Below, one piece after another: positions 6,276 through 15,789 of a stretch of 22,792 nt of DNA. This DNA comes from a virus. A program made the position numbers and the translations under genes. Position 1 is the stretch's first letter. Every line of letters begins with the position of its first letter. The notes beneath the pieces were generated by a model that was given only the letters and a program-made list of their open reading frames with translations, made no database searches and was not told the origin of the DNA. The stretch lies in the IMG/VR virus record IMGVR_UViG_3300042475_000501, positions 1 to 22,792 of that record; one strand, given 5' to 3'.

Positions 6276-6494
6276 TTATTTGGTACCCAAGCCATACTCT
6301 TTTTCGGTCTTATCTGCCCATTTAGCCAAAGGTCCTGCTATAGAGCCGATTAGGATTGCATACTCAGGAGTGAGGTCAGCAGCGAGTGCTAATCCCATAG
6401 TTACTGCTGATGCTAGAACAGCACGTAGATAAGACTTAAATGCAGCCTTACTTTTCTTGCTTTTCAATTTAGCAATTAGATCTTTCATATCCAT
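6276..6494 (-). CDS. Putative holin
   Basis: This 72-aa protein starts with a Lys-rich cytoplasmic segment (MDMKDLIAKLKSKKSKAAFK). Two hydrophobic stretches follow (YLRAVLASAVTMGLALAAD and EYAILIGSIAGPLAKWA) around a short TP turn, with a charged tail at the end. Size, charge layout and position directly behind the endolysin fit a class II-type phage holin. Holins form membrane holes that release the endolysin at a set time. The gene begins three bases after the endolysin stop. The family name is not certain, and the 67-aa protein at 7068-7271 is a second candidate. Confidence 0.65.
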   Translation of the reverse strand: MDMKDLIAKLKSKKSKAAFKSYLRAVLASAVTMGLALAADLTPEYAILIGSIAGPLAKWADKTEKEYGLGTK

Positions 6495-6497
6495 CCT

Positions 6498-6953
6498 TTA
6501 AGGGCGTGCAACGCCCATTACTAGGGAGTAGGCACGTTTCCTAAGATACACACCATCTCCATTTGACTGACTACCTTTACTGCCACTAGAGGTATTACCC
6601 TCATAGACCGTAAGGTATTTTTTTCCATCGTTACTGGCGCATATCCCAACATGGTCAGGCTGTGCATCACTATCGAACTGGAAGAATACTATATCACCAG
6701 GTTGAGCCTTGCCAACTGGGATTATCTTGCCTTTTTTGGTAAACCACTTAAGTCCCGCATCGCATGATGCAAATCCCTTACGGGTCTGTGCTGCCACCTT
6801 GGATACTATCCCTGCTTTATCAAACACCCAAGATACGAACATAGCACACCAAGGTTGGTTATTAGCACCATACCATTTGCCGTACATATTATTGTTGTTA
6901 CTGCCTACTTCTTTATATCCAAGTTGTGACTTGGCTATGTCTACTACCATCAT
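6498..6953 (-). CDS. Endolysin with CHAP / NlpC-P60-type cysteine peptidase domain
   Basis: The product is 151 aa from the ATG at 6953, which overlaps the stop of the Cys-rich gene as ATGA. The frame has another ATG at 6965, but the overlap supports 6953 or the adjacent 6950. The whole protein is one CHAP-like domain: PWCAMFVSWV places the catalytic cysteine at C36, AQPGDIVFFQF is the conserved turn, PDHVGIC gives H101, and VYEGNT gives E118/N120 as third residue. Such enzymes cut peptidoglycan peptides or the amide bond. No cell-wall-binding domain and no signal peptide are seen, so it needs a holin for export. It sits in the lysis cassette. Confidence 0.88.
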   Translation of the reverse strand: MMVVDIAKSQLGYKEVGSNNNNMYGKWYGANNQPWCAMFVSWVFDKAGIVSKVAAQTRKGFASCDAGLKWFTKKGKIIPVGKAQPGDIVFFQFDSDAQPDHVGICASNDGKKYLTVYEGNTSSGSKGSQSNGDGVYLRKRAYSLVMGVARP

Positions 6954-7081
6954 ATTGACCACCATCCATTGAATCCAGCATCAGGGTTATCTTGTAACCA
7001 CTTTTCTCTTAATTCATTTTGCTTAGGCCAGCATATATCATGTGGCTCACAGCCACAATTCTGACAGTTATTGTCTTCCAT
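6950..7081 (-). CDS. 43-aa cysteine-rich protein in the lysis cassette
   Basis: This short gene encodes 43 residues beginning MEDNNCQNCGCEPHDICWPK and ending with a Trp-rich tail (FNGWWSI). Four cysteines (CxxCxC plus DIC) and one histidine could bind zinc or form disulfides. It overlaps the 67-aa gene by 14 bases and ends in an ATGA overlap with the endolysin start. That positioning, filling the gap exactly, argues that it is translated. I do not recognise the family. A lysis regulator or a small virion protein are both possible. Confidence 0.6.
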   Translation of the reverse strand: MEDNNCQNCGCEPHDICWPKQNELREKWLQDNPDAGFNGWWSI

Positions 7082-7271
7082 TTTGAATCAAAATCTGGTA
7101 GAGGGTGTCTACCTTTTCCTCTAGTCGGTTAACCTGGTCCTTGATACTAGAGCCACCATTTTGCTTAAGTTCAGACAGATAGTATTTAACTAAGTGTCTC
7201 ACACCTAATGCTAAAGAACCAAATAATGTGGTTATGGCTACTGCAAATGCTGCCCAATCTTGCGCTGACAT
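7068..7271 (-). CDS. Small membrane protein with coiled coil (holin-like)
   Basis: This 67-aa protein has one predicted membrane segment (WAAFAVAITTLFGSLALGV, about residues 6-24). A short basic stretch and a C-terminal coiled-coil heptad region follow (IKDQVNRLEEKVDTLYQILI). The layout resembles small phage lysis proteins such as holin partners and XhlA-like proteins. It starts with a TAATG overlap on the stop of the 736-aa tail gene and precedes the endolysin, so it belongs to the lysis cassette. Confidence 0.65.
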   Translation of the reverse strand: MSAQDWAAFAVAITTLFGSLALGVRHLVKYYLSELKQNGGSSIKDQVNRLEEKVDTLYQILIQNGRQ

Positions 7272-9481
7272 TATAAGACCGTTCTAACTGTGATAGTTAA
7301 TAAACCGCCAAACCCATCATAGCGAGCACTAGGTGGTGTCTTACGTGTAAATGATACTTTCTCTACCAAGGCTTGAACCCTTTCTCCAGTTGTAAAGTCT
7401 TGAACATTAATAATATCTCCAGCGGCTTCTATATCTTCTAACTTTTGGATACGCTCCCAAGCACGGCCTTCATATCCAGCCAGTACATTGTATCTATCGG
7501 TTTCCACGTCATAACACCAAACAGGGAACTGAATCAACCGTTGGCGCTTAGTCGCTGGAAGAGATTTTGCCTGAAAGCCCTTGAAAGTTGGGCCAAGACT
7601 GGTATTGCTTGCGCTACGTGAGAGCGTAAATTTATAGGATATAAACTCCTGTGGTCCTTCTGGACTGTTTGTAGCAGCCTCAGGAGTACCAATAGAAGAG
7701 TTATATGTGATAACTGCATAGGTATTATTGTTTGAATCAACAGTTGCTATATCCATAGCACCATTAGCAAATATACCACGGCCACGAATGAACTTATAGT
7801 TCTTAGGTTCTAGTGTTCCATAACGAATAGCACCTGTAGTTAGGTAGCCACTAGATTTTTTAACACTAGGTAACTCTCTGTATACGTGTCCATTAGTAGA
7901 GTTATAGGTTGTACAAAATGCTAGATTATTACTAGTTCCAAAGAAAGCCACACCAGTAGTTTGGTGTTCTGTTGTTTGGGTATATTGTAGATCATTAGCA
8001 TAAGCAAATCTCAAGGATTCACCCTCTACAGAAGTACTTAAATCAATGCGGATAAGACCAGCATCTAATGAACCAATACCTGTAGCACACCATACAAAAC
8101 GATCACGAGCAGCGAAGTCATAGCAAGGCTGTGATGTTTCCACAATAAGTGGACCATAAGATACAGAACCATCTTGGTCATTTACAATGCCAACACGGAC
8201 ACCTTTATTGGTGCCGATCAGCATATATCCTAAGTAGTAGTAAATGTCATAAACAATTTCACCAGGAGGAAACTCAGCAGATACGATTGCTGAAGTCAAT
8301 GTTGGCATAGAGCCAGATGTGTTACTTAGGGTATACTTTTGAATAGTCGAATGTATAGCATTGTGTCCAGCGGTATAAATGGCAGGACCCGAAGCAGTAA
8401 TACCTGTATAAACATAAGTAGTTACAGGGTTTGTATAAAGAGCAGTGGGTAGAGCGGTTGCATTAGGCGCTACCTCAAAAATTTTATTATTAACTGACAT
8501 GACTATGCGATCTTTTACATACTCTAATAGAGCATCTGTTACGGTAGTTCCCGTAGCATAAAACATAGTAACGACATCAGATGTATCGCTAGAATTTCCC
8601 GTTAAAGGCTTCTTGTACATATGCAATTTTGATGCACCACCTTGCGGTGTATTGGTTACCCAATAGGCATATGTACCATCATCACAGATACCATATACAG
8701 GTTCTGCTGAACCAGAGTTGTAATCAATAAAATGTGTTAAACTGCTTGTAGCACTTCCTACTGGAGATACTGCTGCAGAAGTTACATTAGTTGCAGTTTT
8801 AGCGTAGGTAAATGTTGTAGTTGTAGGTACTGTAGTAATAGTATAAGTACCATTAAAGGTAGCATCTACACCAGTAATCACTACTTCCATACCTACTGAA
8901 AGACCATGAGCAGCAGAGGTAGTTAATGTAGCCACGTTTGAGGTTAAGGCTTTATTGCTGACAGAGGCTGTTATAGGTTGATAAACCTTATCTACATCAT
9001 ATCCATCATGAAGCAATACGGCATCTCTGTCGCTATATCTAATAGAACGAACATGCTGACTAGGCTTACCATTTGCTTGTAGGGCAGTAGTTACTTCATG
9101 GTTTTCATAAACATCATTTAATAAAGATACCTGTCCCTTTGTCCAAACATCTACACCTTGAGAGTCGGTAAATCTATAGTTAGTGGATTCTCCTGAAGTT
9201 GGATCATAAAACTTAATACCAGTACCACCATGAAATGATGATTGAGAACGAATCCACCAACCAGTTAGAGATTGCTCTCCTGGTTCTTTGGAGTTGTCAA
9301 ACTGATCTTTACGATAAGGCGCAGTTTCTCTTTGATACGGATTAACATCCGTAGGTGCCAAAATGAAAGGTTCTCCACCAATAGCAACGTCATAGTCTTC
9401 TGCGTTATTTATCCAAAAACCAGCAATACCGGGGTTACCAACATTGAGGGGTAACGATTCGGTTATATCACGACCAGCCAC
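7271..9481 (-). CDS. Large tail protein (nozzle/hub-like, propeller-type)
   Basis: This 736-aa protein opens with a conserved block, DQFDNSKEPGEQSLTGWW followed by RSQSSFHGGTGIKFYDP (residues about 58-95). I recall this block from actinophage minor tail proteins. Residues about 165-245 (from VSNKALTSNVATLTTSAAHG on) form an inserted beta-rich repeat-type domain. The centre has many short strand blocks with WV/YW motifs (YGICDDGTYAYWVT, DRFVWCATGIG) that fit a beta-propeller. The C-terminus ends in a strand (LLTITVRTVL) typical of such tail proteins. It may form the tail tip or nozzle. It is the last structural gene before lysis, ending in a TAATG overlap. Confidence 0.75.
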   Translation of the reverse strand: MAGRDITESLPLNVGNPGIAGFWINNAEDYDVAIGGEPFILAPTDVNPYQRETAPYRKDQFDNSKEPGEQSLTGWWIRSQSSFHGGTGIKFYDPTSGESTNYRFTDSQGVDVWTKGQVSLLNDVYENHEVTTALQANGKPSQHVRSIRYSDRDAVLLHDGYDVDKVYQPITASVSNKALTSNVATLTTSAAHGLSVGMEVVITGVDATFNGTYTITTVPTTTTFTYAKTATNVTSAAVSPVGSATSSLTHFIDYNSGSAEPVYGICDDGTYAYWVTNTPQGGASKLHMYKKPLTGNSSDTSDVVTMFYATGTTVTDALLEYVKDRIVMSVNNKIFEVAPNATALPTALYTNPVTTYVYTGITASGPAIYTAGHNAIHSTIQKYTLSNTSGSMPTLTSAIVSAEFPPGEIVYDIYYYLGYMLIGTNKGVRVGIVNDQDGSVSYGPLIVETSQPCYDFAARDRFVWCATGIGSLDAGLIRIDLSTSVEGESLRFAYANDLQYTQTTEHQTTGVAFFGTSNNLAFCTTYNSTNGHVYRELPSVKKSSGYLTTGAIRYGTLEPKNYKFIRGRGIFANGAMDIATVDSNNNTYAVITYNSSIGTPEAATNSPEGPQEFISYKFTLSRSASNTSLGPTFKGFQAKSLPATKRQRLIQFPVWCYDVETDRYNVLAGYEGRAWERIQKLEDIEAAGDIINVQDFTTGERVQALVEKVSFTRKTPPSARYDGFGGLLTITVRTVL

Positions 9482-9507
9482 AGTGCTCCTTTAAATAGTT
9501 ACGAGTA

Positions 9508-9732
9508 TTACAGTGCTGCGATTTCGTCAGCAGACAAACCTAGTGCTGCTAACTTTGCCTCTGCTGATGCTTTGGCTGCAGCCTTGGCTGTTGCTGCTGC
9601 TTCTTCTTCTGCCTTGCGAGTCGCATAGGCCGCTGCATCTGCTTCTCTTTGAGCAACTTCTGCATCGGTAAGTTCTACCTCAGTAGATATTCCTGTGGAA
9701 CAATCCACAATTACTTTAGTTGGGTTTGGCAT
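9508..9732 (-). CDS. Small Ala/Glu-rich helical phage protein
   Basis: This 74-aa protein has a short beta segment (KVIVDCSTGISTEVELTD), followed by a long helical Ala/Glu/Lys tract (about residues 25-62) and a conserved-looking end, LAALGLSADEIAAL. I recall small proteins of this design in the tail-fibre regions of many aquatic phages, with no assigned function. It lies between the three paralogous surface proteins and the large tail protein. A chaperone or coiled-coil connector role is possible. Confidence 0.65.
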   Translation of the reverse strand: MPNPTKVIVDCSTGISTEVELTDAEVAQREADAAAYATRKAEEEAAATAKAAAKASAEAKLAALGLSADEIAAL

Positions 9733-9748
9733 TGTTTCTCCTTAGTTG

Positions 9749-10258
9749 TTATGATTTTGATATTCCGTATAGGTAAGCGGTTGAGTATTGTAAAAATGTG
9801 CCGCTACTAGGCAAAAGTTTAACTGAAGTGATTGCAGCAGTATTACTCCACAGAGTTGCATAAAATGCTTGGTCGCCTCTAATAGCATTGTTTTCTGCAA
9901 CAGAATCACCACTTACAGATTTGTAGTTAGCACTTGCGTAATTAGTTATATAAATTGAAGCATTGCCAAAAGAACTGGCAGTCATACTAGCAGCAGGAAT
10001 AGTTCCTACTTGGTTGTTTGTATTATTTTGAGATACTGGTGTTCCTGAACCTACGCCAACAATATTTTTCCAACTAAAATTAGAAGAACTATTATTAAAT
10101 TGAATATAAATATCATCAGCATTTGCTGCAATACTTGAACGAAGTGAACATAAGATTTGCAAATCTGTATAAGTAGCAGGTATAGAAGTGAACTCTATGT
10201 TAGCCGCACCACCACTACCAACAGTTGAACTTGCAATTAAAGTATATGTATTAGCCAT
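9749..10258 (-). CDS. Tandem paralogous surface/fibre protein, copy 3
   Basis: This 169-aa beta-rich protein is the third of three neighbouring paralogues. Shared landmarks are the N-terminal YTLIASSTVGSGGAANIEFT..IPATYTDLQ block, a central NY-S/A-N..YK segment (YITNYASANYKSV), a W-x-N/D-x-x-A-I-x-S segment (LWSNTAAITSVKL) and the ending YLYGI. It is rich in Ser, Thr, Asn and Ala and lacks a signal peptide, as expected for virion proteins. It starts in a TAATG overlap with copy 2. Likely it is a receptor-binding or decorating module at the tail or fibre tip; this is inferred from composition and position. Confidence 0.7.
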   Translation of the reverse strand: MANTYTLIASSTVGSGGAANIEFTSIPATYTDLQILCSLRSSIAANADDIYIQFNNSSSNFSWKNIVGVGSGTPVSQNNTNNQVGTIPAASMTASSFGNASIYITNYASANYKSVSGDSVAENNAIRGDQAFYATLWSNTAAITSVKLLPSSGTFLQYSTAYLYGISKS

Positions 10259-10779
10259 TATGCCGCCGCTATTCCGTAGAGTGTGAAGGTTGAGCCTGTA
10301 TCTAAATTATTTGAACCAGTATTTTGTTTAACAGTAATTGAATTTATTGCACTTGCATCCCGCCAACATCCAACTATTGCTTCAGTTCCAGGGCCATTAC
10401 TTGTGGAACCGTTAGAGTACCGACTTAAAACAGTTTTGAAAGTTGTACTGTTTGAATAATTCATTATGTTTGTAATAACAGTTCCAAATGTATTAGAGGC
10501 AGTTGGAATACCCACATTGTAGGTAAGTGTAATGTGAGATTGACTAGTCGCTCTTGCTGAACCAGCAGTTGTACCATCTCCATATAAGTCGGTTAAACTA
10601 TAGCCAGAGGTACTTGAATTAAATTGTAATATTAATCCAAAACCTGCAGTAGTTATTTTCACATTAGATACTAAAACTAAATCAGTATAACTTCCCGAAA
10701 TACTAGAGAAGGTAACTGATGATGCTGCGCTACCTAAAGTAGTTGTTGCTATCGGTTTGTATGTTGTTCCTGCGGCCAT
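10258..10779 (-). CDS. Tandem paralogous surface/fibre protein, copy 2
   Basis: This 173-aa protein follows the same plan as its neighbours: YKPIATTTLGSAASSVTFSS plus SYTDL near the N-terminus, NYSNSTTFKTV in the middle, CWRDASAINSITV and a final FTLYGI. Inner loops (about residues 45-95 and 115-135) differ strongly from the other copies while the framework is kept. This fits a shared fold with varied binding surfaces. The stop overlaps the next start as TAATG. Confidence 0.7.
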   Translation of the reverse strand: MAAGTTYKPIATTTLGSAASSVTFSSISGSYTDLVLVSNVKITTAGFGLILQFNSSTSGYSLTDLYGDGTTAGSARATSQSHITLTYNVGIPTASNTFGTVITNIMNYSNSTTFKTVLSRYSNGSTSNGPGTEAIVGCWRDASAINSITVKQNTGSNNLDTGSTFTLYGIAAA

Positions 10780-10782
10780 TGT

Positions 10783-11391
10783 CTATGCTCCTTTAATTCC
10801 GTATAAAGAAAATTTACTATATTGTGCAAAAGAATAAGCAGGTACAGTAAGTGTGATTGTAGATATAGCATTAGTATTTAACCATAAATTAGATACCATA
10901 GATACAAATCCATTACCATTTCCATCATAACCATTGATACTACGAATAGTTTTATATTTATTTGTATTAGCATAGTCAATAAAATCAAAAATCATAACAC
11001 CAAAAACTGATGTTAAATCATTGCTAGGTGTTACATCTATAAGACCAGCATAACTACCAGTTGCAAGACCTCCAGCGCTGACAGTTGAGCCATCACCAGA
11101 TAGAACGTGACGTGTGTAGTTAGCGGTGCTAGTATCGCTGTTTACTTGACAGAATACACTTGCTGTGTTTTGACCAGTACGAGTGTTTTTTGCAGAAACA
11201 CGAAGTTGTAAATGCTTAAAAGTGTCAGGTATAGAACTGATTGTAATGGTTGCCTGACTACTACTTAATGTAGTTGTTGCAATAGATTCGTAATTGCCAA
11301 AGTCAACGGTAGGATTACCAGCCAAAAAACTAGAGTAATTAGTTCTAGGTGTGGCTAATCCGCCAGCACTAGACAGTTTATAGACACCCAT
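10783..11391 (-). CDS. Tandem paralogous surface/fibre protein, copy 1, with N-terminal extension
   Basis: This 202-aa protein has about 35 extra N-terminal residues (GVYKLSSAGGLATPRTNYSS, then FLAGNP) that the other two copies lack. I recall such GLxTPRTxYxSxLAGN leaders as a docking segment in aquatic phage tail proteins. The rest is the shared domain: YESIATTTLSSSQATITISS, IDYANTNKYKTI, LWLNTNAISTITL and FSLYGI. The extension may anchor this copy to the virion while the others assemble on it. It begins one base after the stop of the 100-aa gene. Confidence 0.7.
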   Translation of the reverse strand: MGVYKLSSAGGLATPRTNYSSFLAGNPTVDFGNYESIATTTLSSSQATITISSIPDTFKHLQLRVSAKNTRTGQNTASVFCQVNSDTSTANYTRHVLSGDGSTVSAGGLATGSYAGLIDVTPSNDLTSVFGVMIFDFIDYANTNKYKTIRSINGYDGNGNGFVSMVSNLWLNTNAISTITLTVPAYSFAQYSKFSLYGIKGA

Positions 11392-11392
11392 A

Positions 11393-11695
11393 TTAGGCTA
11401 TCTCCACTCCTGAGATGTGGAAGTTAACGGTAGTAGCAGATGCTAAACCTTTAATAGTCTGAGTAGCAGTTAGTGGTTGCTTTAATTGTATGATAGTTGA
11501 GTCATTGGCTCCAACGGTTACAGTCTTTGCTAGAACTATATCATTAAGTAATAGTTCGTAAGTAGCAGTTGATGCTGCTGTATTAGTAACAACAATATCA
11601 GTTACTACAGTTGTAGTTGCCGAAGGGGTTGTGTATAGTGTTGTGCTTGATGTTGATGCTGCGCCTCTAAAGAGGATTTTACTTGTTGTAGCCAT
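11393..11695 (-). CDS. Small beta-rich virion protein (100 aa)
   Basis: This 100-aa protein is almost entirely Thr/Ala/Val/Ser-rich beta sequence (TTVVTDIVVTNTAASTATYE, then LLLNDIVLAK). It resembles an Ig-like or jelly-roll strand set and has no Cys. It appears related in design to the 115-aa protein at 13149-13496: both have alternating hydrophobic strands, a short Asn-containing turn in the middle and a terminal strand. It is probably a fibre-associated or decoration protein. Confidence 0.6.
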   Translation of the reverse strand: MATTSKILFRGAASTSSTTLYTTPSATTTVVTDIVVTNTAASTATYELLLNDIVLAKTVTVGANDSTIIQLKQPLTATQTIKGLASATTVNFHISGVEIA

Positions 11696-11717
11696 TAGTT
11701 ACTACCTTTCGTTGTTG

Positions 11718-11852: not shown

Positions 11853-12196
11853 TGTACTTCCCTCCAAGATAGGTCATCCTCTGACCAGTAGTAGAACTTA
11901 CCTTCTGTTGTAGGCATAGGAGTAGGTGCTTGCCAACGGCAAGTAGCCTCATCTAAGACCCAAGAGTTAAAAGGTTTAGGTGCTATAAAAGCATCCCTTG
12001 TAGCATCATAGGTATAACCAATACCTGCATAGTTTTTACGTATGTTGCCATTGTAAGATGTTCTCTTACATACTTGACCTCTGAAGTTACCATACCAAGT
12101 TTCAGTATCTAATCCTTCAATAAGTTCAGTTTCATCTATACCTGTAATTACCTCAGTAACTACATTATTGTTATTTAAAAAAGCGTAATGTGCCAT
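11849..12196 (-). CDS. Conserved aquatic-phage fibre-region protein (MAHYAF family)
   Basis: Starting at the ATG at 12196 (TAATG overlap with the Gly-rich gene) the product is 115 aa; a TTG at 12205 would add three residues but lacks support. MAHYAFLNNNNVVTEVI, then NYAGIGYTYDATRDAFIAPK, then a Trp-rich end (WQAPTPMP, YYWSEDDLSWREV) form a pattern I remember from many marine and freshwater phages. There it sits beside fibre genes and lacks a known function. The order of blocks is intact, so it is full length. It is probably a virion or assembly protein linked to fibres. Confidence 0.75.
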   Translation of the reverse strand: MAHYAFLNNNNVVTEVITGIDETELIEGLDTETWYGNFRGQVCKRTSYNGNIRKNYAGIGYTYDATRDAFIAPKPFNSWVLDEATCRWQAPTPMPTTEGKFYYWSEDDLSWREVQ

Positions 12197-13149
12197 TATG
12201 CCCAACTCACGTTTCCTGTGCCTGCTGTTATTGTTGTTACTTTAAATCCACCTGAAGGCGAAGCAGTTGAACCTGTTAATCCAGCACCAATGGTAATTGT
12301 TCTTGTATCAGGGTATTTAAGGATTACAACTCCTGAGCCTCCTGCCCCACCTGCTCTGTCCACACCATCTGCTCTACCAGCACCACCGCCACCGCCTCTA
12401 TTAGCAGTTCCAGCAACTCCAGTAGTGGCGGACTTGCCACCCCCTCCAGAGCCTCCCAAACCATCTTCGGCATCACCTCCCCAGCCACCACCTCCACCGC
12501 CACCTGCATATGTAACTGATGAGCCAGTAATTGATGTTGCTACACCAGCGCCACCATTACCACCAATAACAGGTTGATTGTTTGGTCCACCTGAGCCCGA
12601 TGAATTGTTACCTACTGCTCCAGCACCACCACCACCACCAGCGCCTGCGTAACCTACAGTTCCACTTGATTTACCGCCAGCATAACCTTGACCACTTGTA
12701 CCTGTACCACCTGAGGAAGAAGTGGTACCACTAGCGCCACCACCTGAACCACCGTTACCGCCAACACCACCATCGCCATTCTTACCAAATCCACCACCAG
12801 TTGATGTAATTGAACTAAAAACGGAATTAACACCTTGTGAGCCTGCTGTGAGTGCAGGACCAGCAGCGCCACCAGCACCAACTGTAACTGTAACATTACT
12901 ATTTAATGCAACGCCTATTGCAGATTCTAATGAACCACCGCCACCAGTAGCAGTTACAGTGCAACGCATACCTCCAGCACCGCCACCGCCACCGCCTAGA
13001 TAGCCAATAGAACCACCACCTCCGCCACCGCCTGCAACAACTAAATAATCAACTGCGATAGTTCCTAATGGTCCACCACCAAACCAAGAGTTAATAGTGT
13101 TGGCATTGGCAACGCCAGTTAGTCTACTTCTTAAACCATATCTTGACAT
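12196..13149 (-). CDS. Glycine-rich tail adhesin
   Basis: This 317-aa protein has an N-terminal segment (SRYGLRSRLTGVANANTINS, then WFGGG), a strand leading into VDYLVVAGGGGGGG, and then more than 200 residues with many runs of 4-7 Gly. The last region is GGAGGSGVVILKYPDTRTI and a beta-rich end. Gly-run domains of this kind form polyglycine II sandwiches in T-even adhesin gp38-type proteins, where variable loops between Gly runs bind the receptor. Here it probably recognises the host surface. The antisense strand shows CCACCACC runs only because of Gly codons. Both junctions with neighbours are TAATG. Confidence 0.8.
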   Translation of the reverse strand: MSRYGLRSRLTGVANANTINSWFGGGPLGTIAVDYLVVAGGGGGGGSIGYLGGGGGGAGGMRCTVTATGGGGSLESAIGVALNSNVTVTVGAGGAAGPALTAGSQGVNSVFSSITSTGGGFGKNGDGGVGGNGGSGGGASGTTSSSGGTGTSGQGYAGGKSSGTVGYAGAGGGGGAGAVGNNSSGSGGPNNQPVIGGNGGAGVATSITGSSVTYAGGGGGGGWGGDAEDGLGGSGGGGKSATTGVAGTANRGGGGGAGRADGVDRAGGAGGSGVVILKYPDTRTITIGAGLTGSTASPSGGFKVTTITAGTGNVSWA

Positions 13150-13506: not shown

Positions 13507-15789
13507 TTATCCGAATATTTGTGCGGCTAGTATTGGTTGGTCATCGTCTGCTGGTGGTACTGTTACTGTTCCCCAAGACGCTGAAGAACCATCGGTTGTT
13601 AAGTACTTTCCTGAGTTACCAGTTTGGCTAGGTAGAGCATCTACGGATGCCCACTCAAGTCCTGTTGCAGTTGCTGAGTTAGCCTTTAGGTAATATCCAT
13701 TAGTACCAACAGTTAGTTTGCCAGGTGTATCTGCAGCAGTTGCTACTAGTATATCTCCCTTAGCATCAAAGAGTGCTTTGTCAATAGCAGTCGCTAAGTC
13801 AAAGGCTGTAAAGGTAATAATCTCTAATATATCTCCAGCAGTTAGTGCAGCCAAAGATGCAATGCTTGTTCCGTTAGATGCTGTGTAATCTGTACCACGA
13901 ACTAATAGAACACCATTTAGATATACTTGCTCTTTGCCAGCGATATAGGAAAGTGTTATGCCATTGTCGTCAAGACCAGACTCAGATGTTTCTCCGCCAG
14001 CAGCGGTATACTTATAACGGAAGATTGCTGCAGTTGAGGATATTGAACCCCAAGCAGAACCATTCCAGGCAAACATAGTATCGGTTACTGAGTTCCAATA
14101 TAAAGCACCTTCAATTAATGCATCACCATCATTGTCTACAGATGGAGCAGATGACTTAGCACCTAGGTATCTATCATCAAAGTTATCATAAGTTGTGGCA
14201 GCAGCAGCAGCGGAGGCTGCAGCAGCAGTAGCAGAACCAGCAACCGTGTCTACGTAGACCTTAGTTGCAGCGTCAGCATTGCTCGTAGGAGTTCCTAGTC
14301 CAGTTACTTTAAAGTTATTGGCATCTAGGTTACCTAGTAATTGACCAGTAGTTCTATTTAGATATGTACCTGAAAGGCTAATAGCACCAGTGTTACCATC
14401 AACAGATAGAACTGCATCTGTCGGGGTTAATAGTTCTTGCCAGTTACCTAATGTGGTAGCAGGAGATGCTGTAAGGATAAATGATTTGTTAACATCTGTA
14501 CGAACTGCAACATCACCAACCTGTGCGGTAAGTGCAAGCATTGCAGCCTGTGAAACAACTACTGATGTTTCGGTAATTGCTAATGCAGGTAATTGATTAG
14601 TAGGAATTAATCCAGAACCATCTAGAGATGCGATACCACTTACTGCACCCTTTTGAGTTGTAATGTAATTAAGAGTTACTGCATCTTGAGCATTAGTTGG
14701 GTCAGCAAGTCCTGTAATCTTCTGAGCATTTAATGGTACGGCAGCAGTAGGCGCAGCCATCTGGTCTAAACGAGATGTACGTACCTGTGTATCAAAGTCT
14801 GAGATAGTTGAGGCTGTCTGTGTACCTGTATGGTTAGCACGGGCTAGTGGGTCAGTTGCTAACTTGCTAAGTGCAATAGCAGCACTAGCATTAATATCAG
14901 CATTGACGATAGTTCCATCTACTAAGTCAGCAGAAGTAATAGAACTGTTAAGGCTTAATTTACCATAAGTAATACCAGCAGATGCATTAACATCTGCGTT
15001 AACAATTGTGCCAGTACCAATAGAGGTAACTAGGTTGACTGCGCCAGTACCATCAAAGGATACGGCTGATGCTTCTACATCTCCAGTTAGTTGGAAGTTA
15101 CGGGCTGTCTGTAAAGCAGTTGCAGTAGCAGCATTACCTGTTGCACTACCTGCAGTACCAGATACGTTACCTGTTACGTTACCTGTTAAGTTAGCAGTAA
15201 TAGTACCTGCAGAAAAGTTACCTGAGGCATCACGGGCTACGATAGCCGAGTTAGTATTGGCAGATGTAGCAGTAGTAGCAGAGTTAGATACCTTGCTAGC
15301 AGTTGAGATAGTGGCTAATTTAGTATCTGCAATAGCAGCACTTGCGTTGATGTCAGCATTAACAATGGTACCATCAAGAATCATACCGCTTGTTACTGTG
15401 CCTGTATCTGTAGTCTTGACTAGGTTAGCAAGAGTAATTCCGTGTGCGGTTGTAGTATTTCTAATATGAGCATCAGCATCACGGAAGTCACGGCCAATAG
15501 CCATGTGACGAACCGCAGCACCAGCAGAGTGGGCTATAGCACTAGAAGAGTCTACGTTTCTTTGAATAGTTAATGTGTTATTGCCAGGAGCACTAGGGCT
15601 AATAACCTCTACAATTTCTTCAAGCGCTGTATCTGGATCAATAACCACTACAAATGTTTCACCAACGGCAGGTGTAATTGAAGCAAGAAGACCAGAGGCG
15701 TTGACTACTGTCATTGTAGAAGCACTATTATTAAGTGCTGCTGCTAATGTAGTTTCTTGTGATATGGATGAATATAGTCTAGTTGACAT
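13507..15789 (-). CDS. Repeat-rich tail fibre protein
   Basis: This is a 760-aa fibre. Residues about 10-95 form a beta module ending VDSSSAIAHSAGAAVRH that resembles a module in the adjacent adaptor candidate. Then DADAHIRNTTTAHGI leads into a long Ser/Thr/Ala shaft with three copies of GTIVNADxNASAxI (around residues 139, 260 and 297). Two typical fibre repeats (AQKITGLADPTNAQDAV and NFKVTGLGTPTSNADAA) follow. Next comes a short Ala-rich helix (ATAAAASAAAAATTYDNF) and a C-terminal module with LYWNSVTDTMFAWNGSAW. A final beta segment follows and may trimerise. It starts in a TAATG overlap with the adaptor candidate gene. It should project from the particle and carry receptor-recognising partners. 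Confidence 0.85.
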   Translation of the reverse strand: MSTRLYSSISQETTLAAALNNSASTMTVVNASGLLASITPAVGETFVVVIDPDTALEEIVEVISPSAPGNNTLTIQRNVDSSSAIAHSAGAAVRHMAIGRDFRDADAHIRNTTTAHGITLANLVKTTDTGTVTSGMILDGTIVNADINASAAIADTKLATISTASKVSNSATTATSANTNSAIVARDASGNFSAGTITANLTGNVTGNVSGTAGSATGNAATATALQTARNFQLTGDVEASAVSFDGTGAVNLVTSIGTGTIVNADVNASAGITYGKLSLNSSITSADLVDGTIVNADINASAAIALSKLATDPLARANHTGTQTASTISDFDTQVRTSRLDQMAAPTAAVPLNAQKITGLADPTNAQDAVTLNYITTQKGAVSGIASLDGSGLIPTNQLPALAITETSVVVSQAAMLALTAQVGDVAVRTDVNKSFILTASPATTLGNWQELLTPTDAVLSVDGNTGAISLSGTYLNRTTGQLLGNLDANNFKVTGLGTPTSNADAATKVYVDTVAGSATAAAASAAAAATTYDNFDDRYLGAKSSAPSVDNDGDALIEGALYWNSVTDTMFAWNGSAWGSISSTAAIFRYKYTAAGGETSESGLDDNGITLSYIAGKEQVYLNGVLLVRGTDYTASNGTSIASLAALTAGDILEIITFTAFDLATAIDKALFDAKGDILVATAADTPGKLTVGTNGYYLKANSATATGLEWASVDALPSQTGNSGKYLTTDGSSASWGTVTVPPADDDQPILAAQIFG
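14873..15375. repeat. Three imperfect repeats inside the fibre gene
   Basis: Copies at about 14873-14921, 14970-15015 and 15330-15375 each encode GTIVNADxNASAxI. The DNA copies diverge mainly at third codon positions while the protein is kept, so selection acts on the protein repeat. This suggests old duplications and not recent recombination. Confidence 0.6.

Follow-up and report, generated by a model that had tools for sequence, protein, structure and literature searches.

The window, by which we mean the whole stretch of viral DNA that was analysed (22,792 nucleotides, IMG/VR record IMGVR_UViG_3300042475_000501), carries three tandem genes, c1, c2 and c3, numbered here as slots 1, 2 and 3, and a small ORF that follows them:

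10783..11391, minus strand: c1 (slot 1), 202 aa, an N-terminal leader followed by an all-beta head; the proposed anchor subunit
10258..10779, minus strand: c2 (slot 2), 173 aa, a leaderless head
9749..10258, minus strand: c3 (slot 3), 169 aa, a leaderless head
9508..9732, minus strand: small Ala/Glu-rich ORF of 74 aa after slot 3, its start region conserved as judged by eye

The genes c1 and c2 lie in one frame, with the c1 stop plus a single codon (three bases) between them, and the ATG of c3 shares one base with the stop of c2, and 134 of 182 triplets (among the matches listed) have this one-base overlap where slot 3 begins. Since the genes overlap or nearly touch, the three proteins would probably be made by coupled translation and in similar amounts. 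An ORF resembling the small one was found after slot 3 in 119 of the 176 cases having enough sequence (among the matches listed), and a family search with the window's own copy (9508-9732) gave nothing above the cut-off. A gene with a match to a tail-fibre family (13507-15789) lies upstream of the three. A long Pro-rich ORF on the plus strand (12188-12577), antisense to a Gly-rich gene (12196-13149), is most likely the codon mirror of that gene and no gene itself.

An earlier note on this DNA had described the three products as paralogs that share conserved blocks, and the paralogy was borne out: the proteins align pairwise over ~170 residues at 31-33% identity in all three pairs, blastp returned E-values of 5.7e-15 (c1/c2), 7e-12 (c1/c3) and 2e-10 (c2/c3), and the local alignment scores were 11 to 17 SD over those of 500 shuffles, none of which reached the observed score. 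The neighbouring 100-aa protein scored against c1-c3 not better than its own shuffles. The blocks themselves were recovered, with two small corrections, when the alignment was checked by eye. IATTTL (c1 and c2), IASSTV (c3) and LYGI (near the end of all three) are present and the leader motif GGLATPRT indeed occurs in c1 only; the central motif, described as beginning with NY, reads DYANTNKYK in c1, with D instead of N, and the segment described as AI-S/T-I/V-T reads AITSVKL in c3. The strong divergence claimed for the sequence between the blocks of c1-c3 was found as well, and entropy is highest in the same two stretches (alignment columns ~40-50 and ~80-90) in each slot (174 triplets, among the matches listed).

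For c1, c2 and c3 no match was obtained in PHROGs (E<=1) and nothing above the cut-off in Pfam; the hits that did occur for the family were under the cut-off or confined to a single member, such as BCSC_C with c3 (E 0.002) and phrog_35103, which one slot-1 protein out of 80 matched. Among PDB sequences, a profile built from 80 slot-1 proteins had no match at E<=1. The collar domain PF07484 was rejected as an assignment, with no match to c1-c3 at E<=1 and, at E<=0.1, none in 80 slot-1 proteins; the slot-2 and slot-3 proteins from other phages that this check covered are those of the loci L008 and L015 and one of L111.

The AlphaFold2 model of c3 (pLDDT 91.5, pTM 0.87) consists of twelve strands and zero helices, and c1 and c2 modelled as one chain (AlphaFold2; pLDDT 79.4, pTM 0.77) gave two domains of twelve and eleven strands with similar spacing; in the leader of c1 (residues 1-31) the pLDDT was below 50 (AlphaFold2). 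The three copies are all predicted to be all-beta with a similar run of strands, as compared along the sequence, and the mismatch of folds that would have spoken against the earlier note was not seen. For two well-folded domains whose mutual placement is unknown we would expect a pTM of about 0.5 (own estimate). Because the observed 0.77 exceeds this, a defined placement of c1 relative to c2 is weakly suggested; tandem homologous domains with a two-residue join can flatter the pTM. The c3 fold had 150 matches at E<=1e-3 among predicted viral proteins, and the names among the listed matches included Gly-rich, FN3, Stf side-tail-fibre repeat and collagen repeat. Fold matches in the PDB were weak (VIA Z up to 7.5, under the caution limit of Z 8) and were tied below Z 8 between lectin-like sandwiches, GH32 C-terminal domains, a phage baseplate cup and others. 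For instance, galectins and L-type lectins matched c3 with Foldseek E-values of 2e-3 and worse and VIA Z of 5.5-6.8 (caution limit 8), and the Tuc2009 RBP head (5e7f) was a weak Foldseek match (E 2.9e-3, TM 0.30). The T4 gp37 structure 2XGF was not among the PDB fold matches listed and may still occur beyond these.

Relatives were collected by scanning viral contigs with slot profiles, keeping the best 80 loci per scan out of the larger number that matched and counting as a set member any ORF of at least 60 aa with a slot-profile i-Evalue <1e-5. Because of this way of collecting, single-copy distant relatives are under-sampled; weak single matches to the slot profiles were seen in L076, L186, L202 and L315. 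The window itself (L005-L007) and further copies of its phage (L166, and L001, a 100% match) were left out of the counts, and a scan of a genome collection added 3 loci, among them L240. Once loci with a common member and identical flanks had been merged, the ordered array 1-2-3 was present in 281 of 303 distinct loci (among the matches listed), namely 274 with pure 123 units (single, double or triple), 6 with one extra match and 1 with a multiple array cut at the locus end. The remaining 22 loci are partial, and in all of them the set lies no more than 750 nt from the end of the locus towards which the missing slot would be expected. The first set, in which loci were merged by identical domain, had given 174 full 1-2-3 arrays and 16 partial ones, each near the end on the missing-slot side, out of 190 distinct loci (among the matches listed), before two further scans of viral contigs and the genome scan brought the total to 303. 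Of the 303, 110 were collected only when the slot profiles already existed, and these consist of 103 loci with pure units, 5 partial ones, 1 cut multiple and 1 locus with an extra match. Slot loss away from the locus ends or a changed order was found in none of the 303 listed loci, and every complete relative examined has the same ordered set of three. A fixed set with one of each slot in a fixed order fits the heteromeric tip proposed by the earlier note.

The exceptions that appear in a simple distance count are due to inserts that separate slots, to a slot 1 divided in two (L037), to weak extra matches and to sets of longer proteins. A stretch of ~360-560 nt lies between two slots in L023, L048, L052, L074, L173, L175, L177 and L181, and in L037 (3913-4480) slot 1 is represented by two overlapping ORFs, perhaps through a frameshift or an assembly error. 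Two or three sets were found in 15 loci, where the majority of the slot-1 genes have their own leader (among the matches listed); the second set of L329 has no slot-1 leader, and slot-1 ORFs without an ATG occur in L111, L201 and L347. The only ORF found with two family domains is in L063 (4989-6299), joining slot 3 to slot 1 of the next set, and the sequence between its two domains is FN3-like by eye.

In a FastTree phylogeny of 498 domains (156 triplets and 5 double sets, among the matches listed) positions 1, 2 and 3 form three clades with one sequence misplaced of the 498. The best clades hold 166/166 of the slot-1 domains, 166/166 of the slot-2 domains (plus one intruder) and 165/166 of the slot-3 domains, with supports of 0.68, which is low, 0.93 and 0.999, respectively. 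Similarly, the nearest neighbour at <80% identity belongs to the same slot for 497 of the 498 domains. As the positions form slot clades, the triplication is old and each slot a lineage of its own, which rules out a recent local duplication. The duplication followed by loop diversification that had been suggested before does not hold if read as recent.

The slots also differ in what is attached to the head. An N-extension of at least 12 aa, measured to the first Met of the ORF and scored as a leader, is present on slot 1 in 208 of 281 triplets and on slots 2 and 3 in 5 and 13 (among the matches listed); slots 2 and 3 have a median N-extension of 1 residue. For 67 of the 73 slot-1 genes without a scored leader, the upstream portion of the ORF contains no ATG. 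Gly-rich C-terminal extensions have the reverse distribution (slot 1 0/281, slot 2 14/281 and slot 3 25/281, among the matches listed), and Gly_rich_2 matched all three extensions that were scanned (slots 2 and 3 of L015, slot 3 of L111). These extensions are roughly 270 aa long on slots 2 and 3 of L015 (3387-6075) and L111 (538-10497) and on slot 3 of L117 (6087-7460); L111, on a contig of 136 kb, has three extension-bearing sets in a row. On a pond MAG contig (L240, 3028-4509) slot 1 stands behind a Gly_rich_2 stretch in one 493-aa ORF, after which come ordinary slots 2 and 3. Both the leader counts and L240 support the view, put forward in the earlier note for copy 1, that slot 1 is the anchor: as a rule slot 1 alone would dock the trio on the tail through its N-terminal leader or a stalk, and slots 2 and 3 would as a rule be leaderless, with Gly-rich C-terminal domains in some phages.

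An anchor on slot 1 could also belong to a stacked chain, a tip of fixed order in which c1 docks on the tail, c2 on c1 and c3 on c2, perhaps each as a homo-oligomer. The gene order would then reflect a possible assembly order, and the usual restriction of the leader to slot 1 as well as the predicted mutual placement of c1 and c2 (pTM 0.77) are in line with it. However, such a chain is quite unlikely in our judgement, as slots 2 and 3 lack docking segments (the median extension of one residue given above) and because in one set of L015 slot 2 as well as slot 3 bears a Gly-rich C-terminal domain, which suggests equivalent positions and not stacked ones.

In a phage collection c1 and c3 matched only OX376640 and OX376641, which are the Planktophila phages LanE43AprE7 (E7) and LanE43AprF5 (F5) (PMC10202952). 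Their neighbourhood is similar to that of the window; the triplet is complete in E7 (L008), and in F5 (L009) slot 1 is cut by the end of the record. A 736-aa protein of the window is 57% identical to its counterparts in these two records, and the remaining 35 matching records are Streptomyces phages (29) and Microbacterium phages (6), for which reason the window is probably that of an actinophage. A relative of this protein occurs in 66 loci, and 133 loci have a relative of a 414-aa protein of L004; no locus has both (loci of a few kb, among the matches listed). The ordered trio thus occurs in at least two different gene neighbourhoods. In L004 the 127-aa gene directly upstream of slot 1 matches minor tail, tail fibre and also head/virion-structural families, and relatives of it were found in 205 of the 303 loci (among the matches listed). 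Trimeric capsid decorations exist, and the trio might be a heteromer of a head fibre or of the capsid surface that is variable by chance and has no part in host recognition. Both neighbourhoods speak against this, with the window's trio downstream of a gene with a tail-fibre match (13507-15789) and that of L004 following a gene which matches minor tail and tail fibre (besides its virion-structural match), as do the Gly-rich domains fused to some slot proteins and the earlier suggestion that the region of E7 and F5 is related to host recognition (PMC10202952), and we consider a decoration very improbable.

In 48 of the 50 pairs among the 281 triplets that have at least one slot above 85% identity another slot is below 70%, and 35 of 37 pairs were mosaic when the count was repeated without merging by identical domain. 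Flanks were taken as homologous if an alignment of no less than 450 nt with a DNA identity of at least 85% was present on either side, and a core was taken as replaced if its protein identity was <70%. The 35 flank-homologous pairs, which come from 36 loci and are not independent, had all three cores replaced in 30 cases, one or two in 4 and none in 1, that is, at least one replaced core in 34 of 35. A comparison of the window with L168 illustrates the pattern:

11200..11716, minus strand: conserved island A (100-aa gene, c1 leader and c1 N-terminal block), 88.1% DNA identity to L168
10804..11199, minus strand: variable core of c1, which blastn did not match to L168 (E<=1e-15), with both sides matching
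10672..10803, minus strand: conserved island B (c1 C-terminal LYGI block and c2 N-terminal block), 83.8% to L168
10302..10671, minus strand: variable core of c2, likewise unmatched in L168 by blastn (E<=1e-15)
10236..10301, minus strand: conserved island C (c2 C-terminal block and c3 start), 97.0% to L168 over 66 nt
9785..10235, minus strand: variable core of c3, likewise unmatched in L168 by blastn (E<=1e-15)
9536..9784, minus strand: conserved island D (c3 C-terminal block and most of the downstream small gene), 83.5% to L168

The DNA identity at the junctions between slots was 0.771 (60 junctions in the 30 all-replaced pairs) versus 0.612 in random pairs (262 junctions, 150 pairs), whereas that of the cores was 0.569 versus 0.542, junctions with a gap >80 nt being left out of this comparison; therefore the ends stay and the cores change. 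The edges of the high-identity blocks coincide with the ends of the conserved protein blocks, and they do not fix the exact crossover points. The window also shares 6484-9511 at 90% with L015, though the triplet of the latter bears Gly-rich extensions.

As the replaced cores of related phages differ almost as much as the cores of random pairs do, point mutation of loops can be dismissed as the main source of the differences between such phages. The loop diversification of the earlier note thus gives way to exchange of whole cores as the main difference between related phages, and for the same reason the test for positive selection in the loops that it proposed is unsuited. The swapped-core pattern also differs from the point-wise variation in targets of diversity-generating retroelements. 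Mantel correlations between the distance matrices of the slots were low (0.17-0.30), yet above all 200 permutations. The slots are thus exchanged largely independently and any interface between them would have to be generic. Independent exchange of highly variable cores in all three slots, together with the occurrence of the same fold on other fibre-like viral proteins, might be taken to mean that each slot forms its own homotrimeric head and that the three adhesins bind three different receptors, the multi-specific set of the earlier note. This is nevertheless rather unlikely: separate adhesins would not need a constant order and an unbroken set, as seen in the 303 listed loci without loss away from the ends, and separate docking is left unexplained because slots 2 and 3 seldom have an N-terminal leader (5 and 13, versus 208 on slot 1, of 281).

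We consider it fairly probable that c1, c2 and c3 are instead the subunits of one heterotrimeric 1:1:1 receptor-binding head of a tailed phage, with slot 1 as its anchor and the swapping of cores as its source of diversity. The three subunits would have the all-beta head fold in common and would most likely come together in a 1:1:1 ratio; their N-terminal blocks and C-terminal LYGI blocks would form a constant shared frame, and the variable core would meet the host. Cores would be exchanged slot by slot between phages, so that new receptor specificities could arise by combination. A role of c1-c3 in host recognition is suggested by the position of the genes, their variability and the company in which the domain is found. 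Several observations count against the heterotrimer: a fixed number and order fits stacked or separately docked adhesins equally well, the Mantel linkage is low, 73 of 281 slot-1 proteins have no scored leader while 5 and 13 proteins of slots 2 and 3 do have N-extensions, the support of the slot-1 clade is just 0.68 and the PDB fold matches are weak.

The heads of phage fibres are usually homotrimers made from one gene as three identical chains, like the lactococcal RBP heads (e.g. that of Tuc2009) and the T4 gp37 tip. Like these, the c1-c3 heads are small and, as predicted, all-beta, but they are encoded by three ordered genes that belong to separate lineages. Heteromeric beta heads in which variable parts are combined on a constant framework are known from the C1q head and from the pairing of antibody chains, an analogy to c1-c3 in which we claim no kinship. 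A closer precedent is Dishui Lake Virophage 2 (DSLV2), in which three consecutive tail genes that form clades by position were proposed to encode a single heterotrimer, a receptor-binding head, with support from AlphaFold3, co-purification, a native band near 55 kDa and negative stain (PMC12724248). Its tail proteins were reported to have a PF07484 collar domain and to resemble T4 gp37 (2XGF) (PMC12724248). The c1-c3 family shares with these tripartite tail proteins the three consecutive ordered genes (in 281 of 303 listed loci) and clades that follow array position. In contrast to the virophage with its PF07484 domain, c1-c3 are found in a tailed phage and have no PF07484 match, and an anchor leader on one slot and core exchange, as found here, are not described for DSLV2 in the accessible part of that paper (PMC12724248). 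The DSLV2 tail would thus work alike and give the idea a precedent, and the family appears to be a different one, set apart by PF07484. The heterotrimer described in PMC10966104 is a different one, a baseplate wedge. In the literature searched, which left preprints and most subscription journals outside, we found no description of the phage cassette as an ordered trio or of its core exchange.

Whether in many tailed phages, at least some of them of freshwater Actinobacteriota, host recognition is set by an ordered three-subunit head with separately swapped cores and a slot-1 anchor is, in our view, evenly balanced. If true, an ordered trio with core-by-core reassortment would be a different route to recognition diversity than that of homotrimer heads, and it would account for the variable island that was described in phages infecting an abundant actinobacterial order of freshwater. 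The three core sequences per phage could then be a simple handle for predicting who infects whom, and E7 and F5, being isolated phages with a cultured host, could be used for testing (PMC10202952). The 5-kb variable island of E7 and F5 was described as including 'three proteins encoding DUF2541' and as possibly related to host recognition, with no slot or complex described for the three genes in the accessible part of that paper (PMC10202952). From the gene order we read these three DUF2541-named genes as slots 1-3. The DUF2541 family itself (PF10807) was rejected as an assignment, since it matched 0 of 7 records at E<=10, both Planktophila phages included, with a positive Escherichia coli control. 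A pattern scan for leader-like peptides on other genes picked up two Gly-rich ORFs of E7 (L008).
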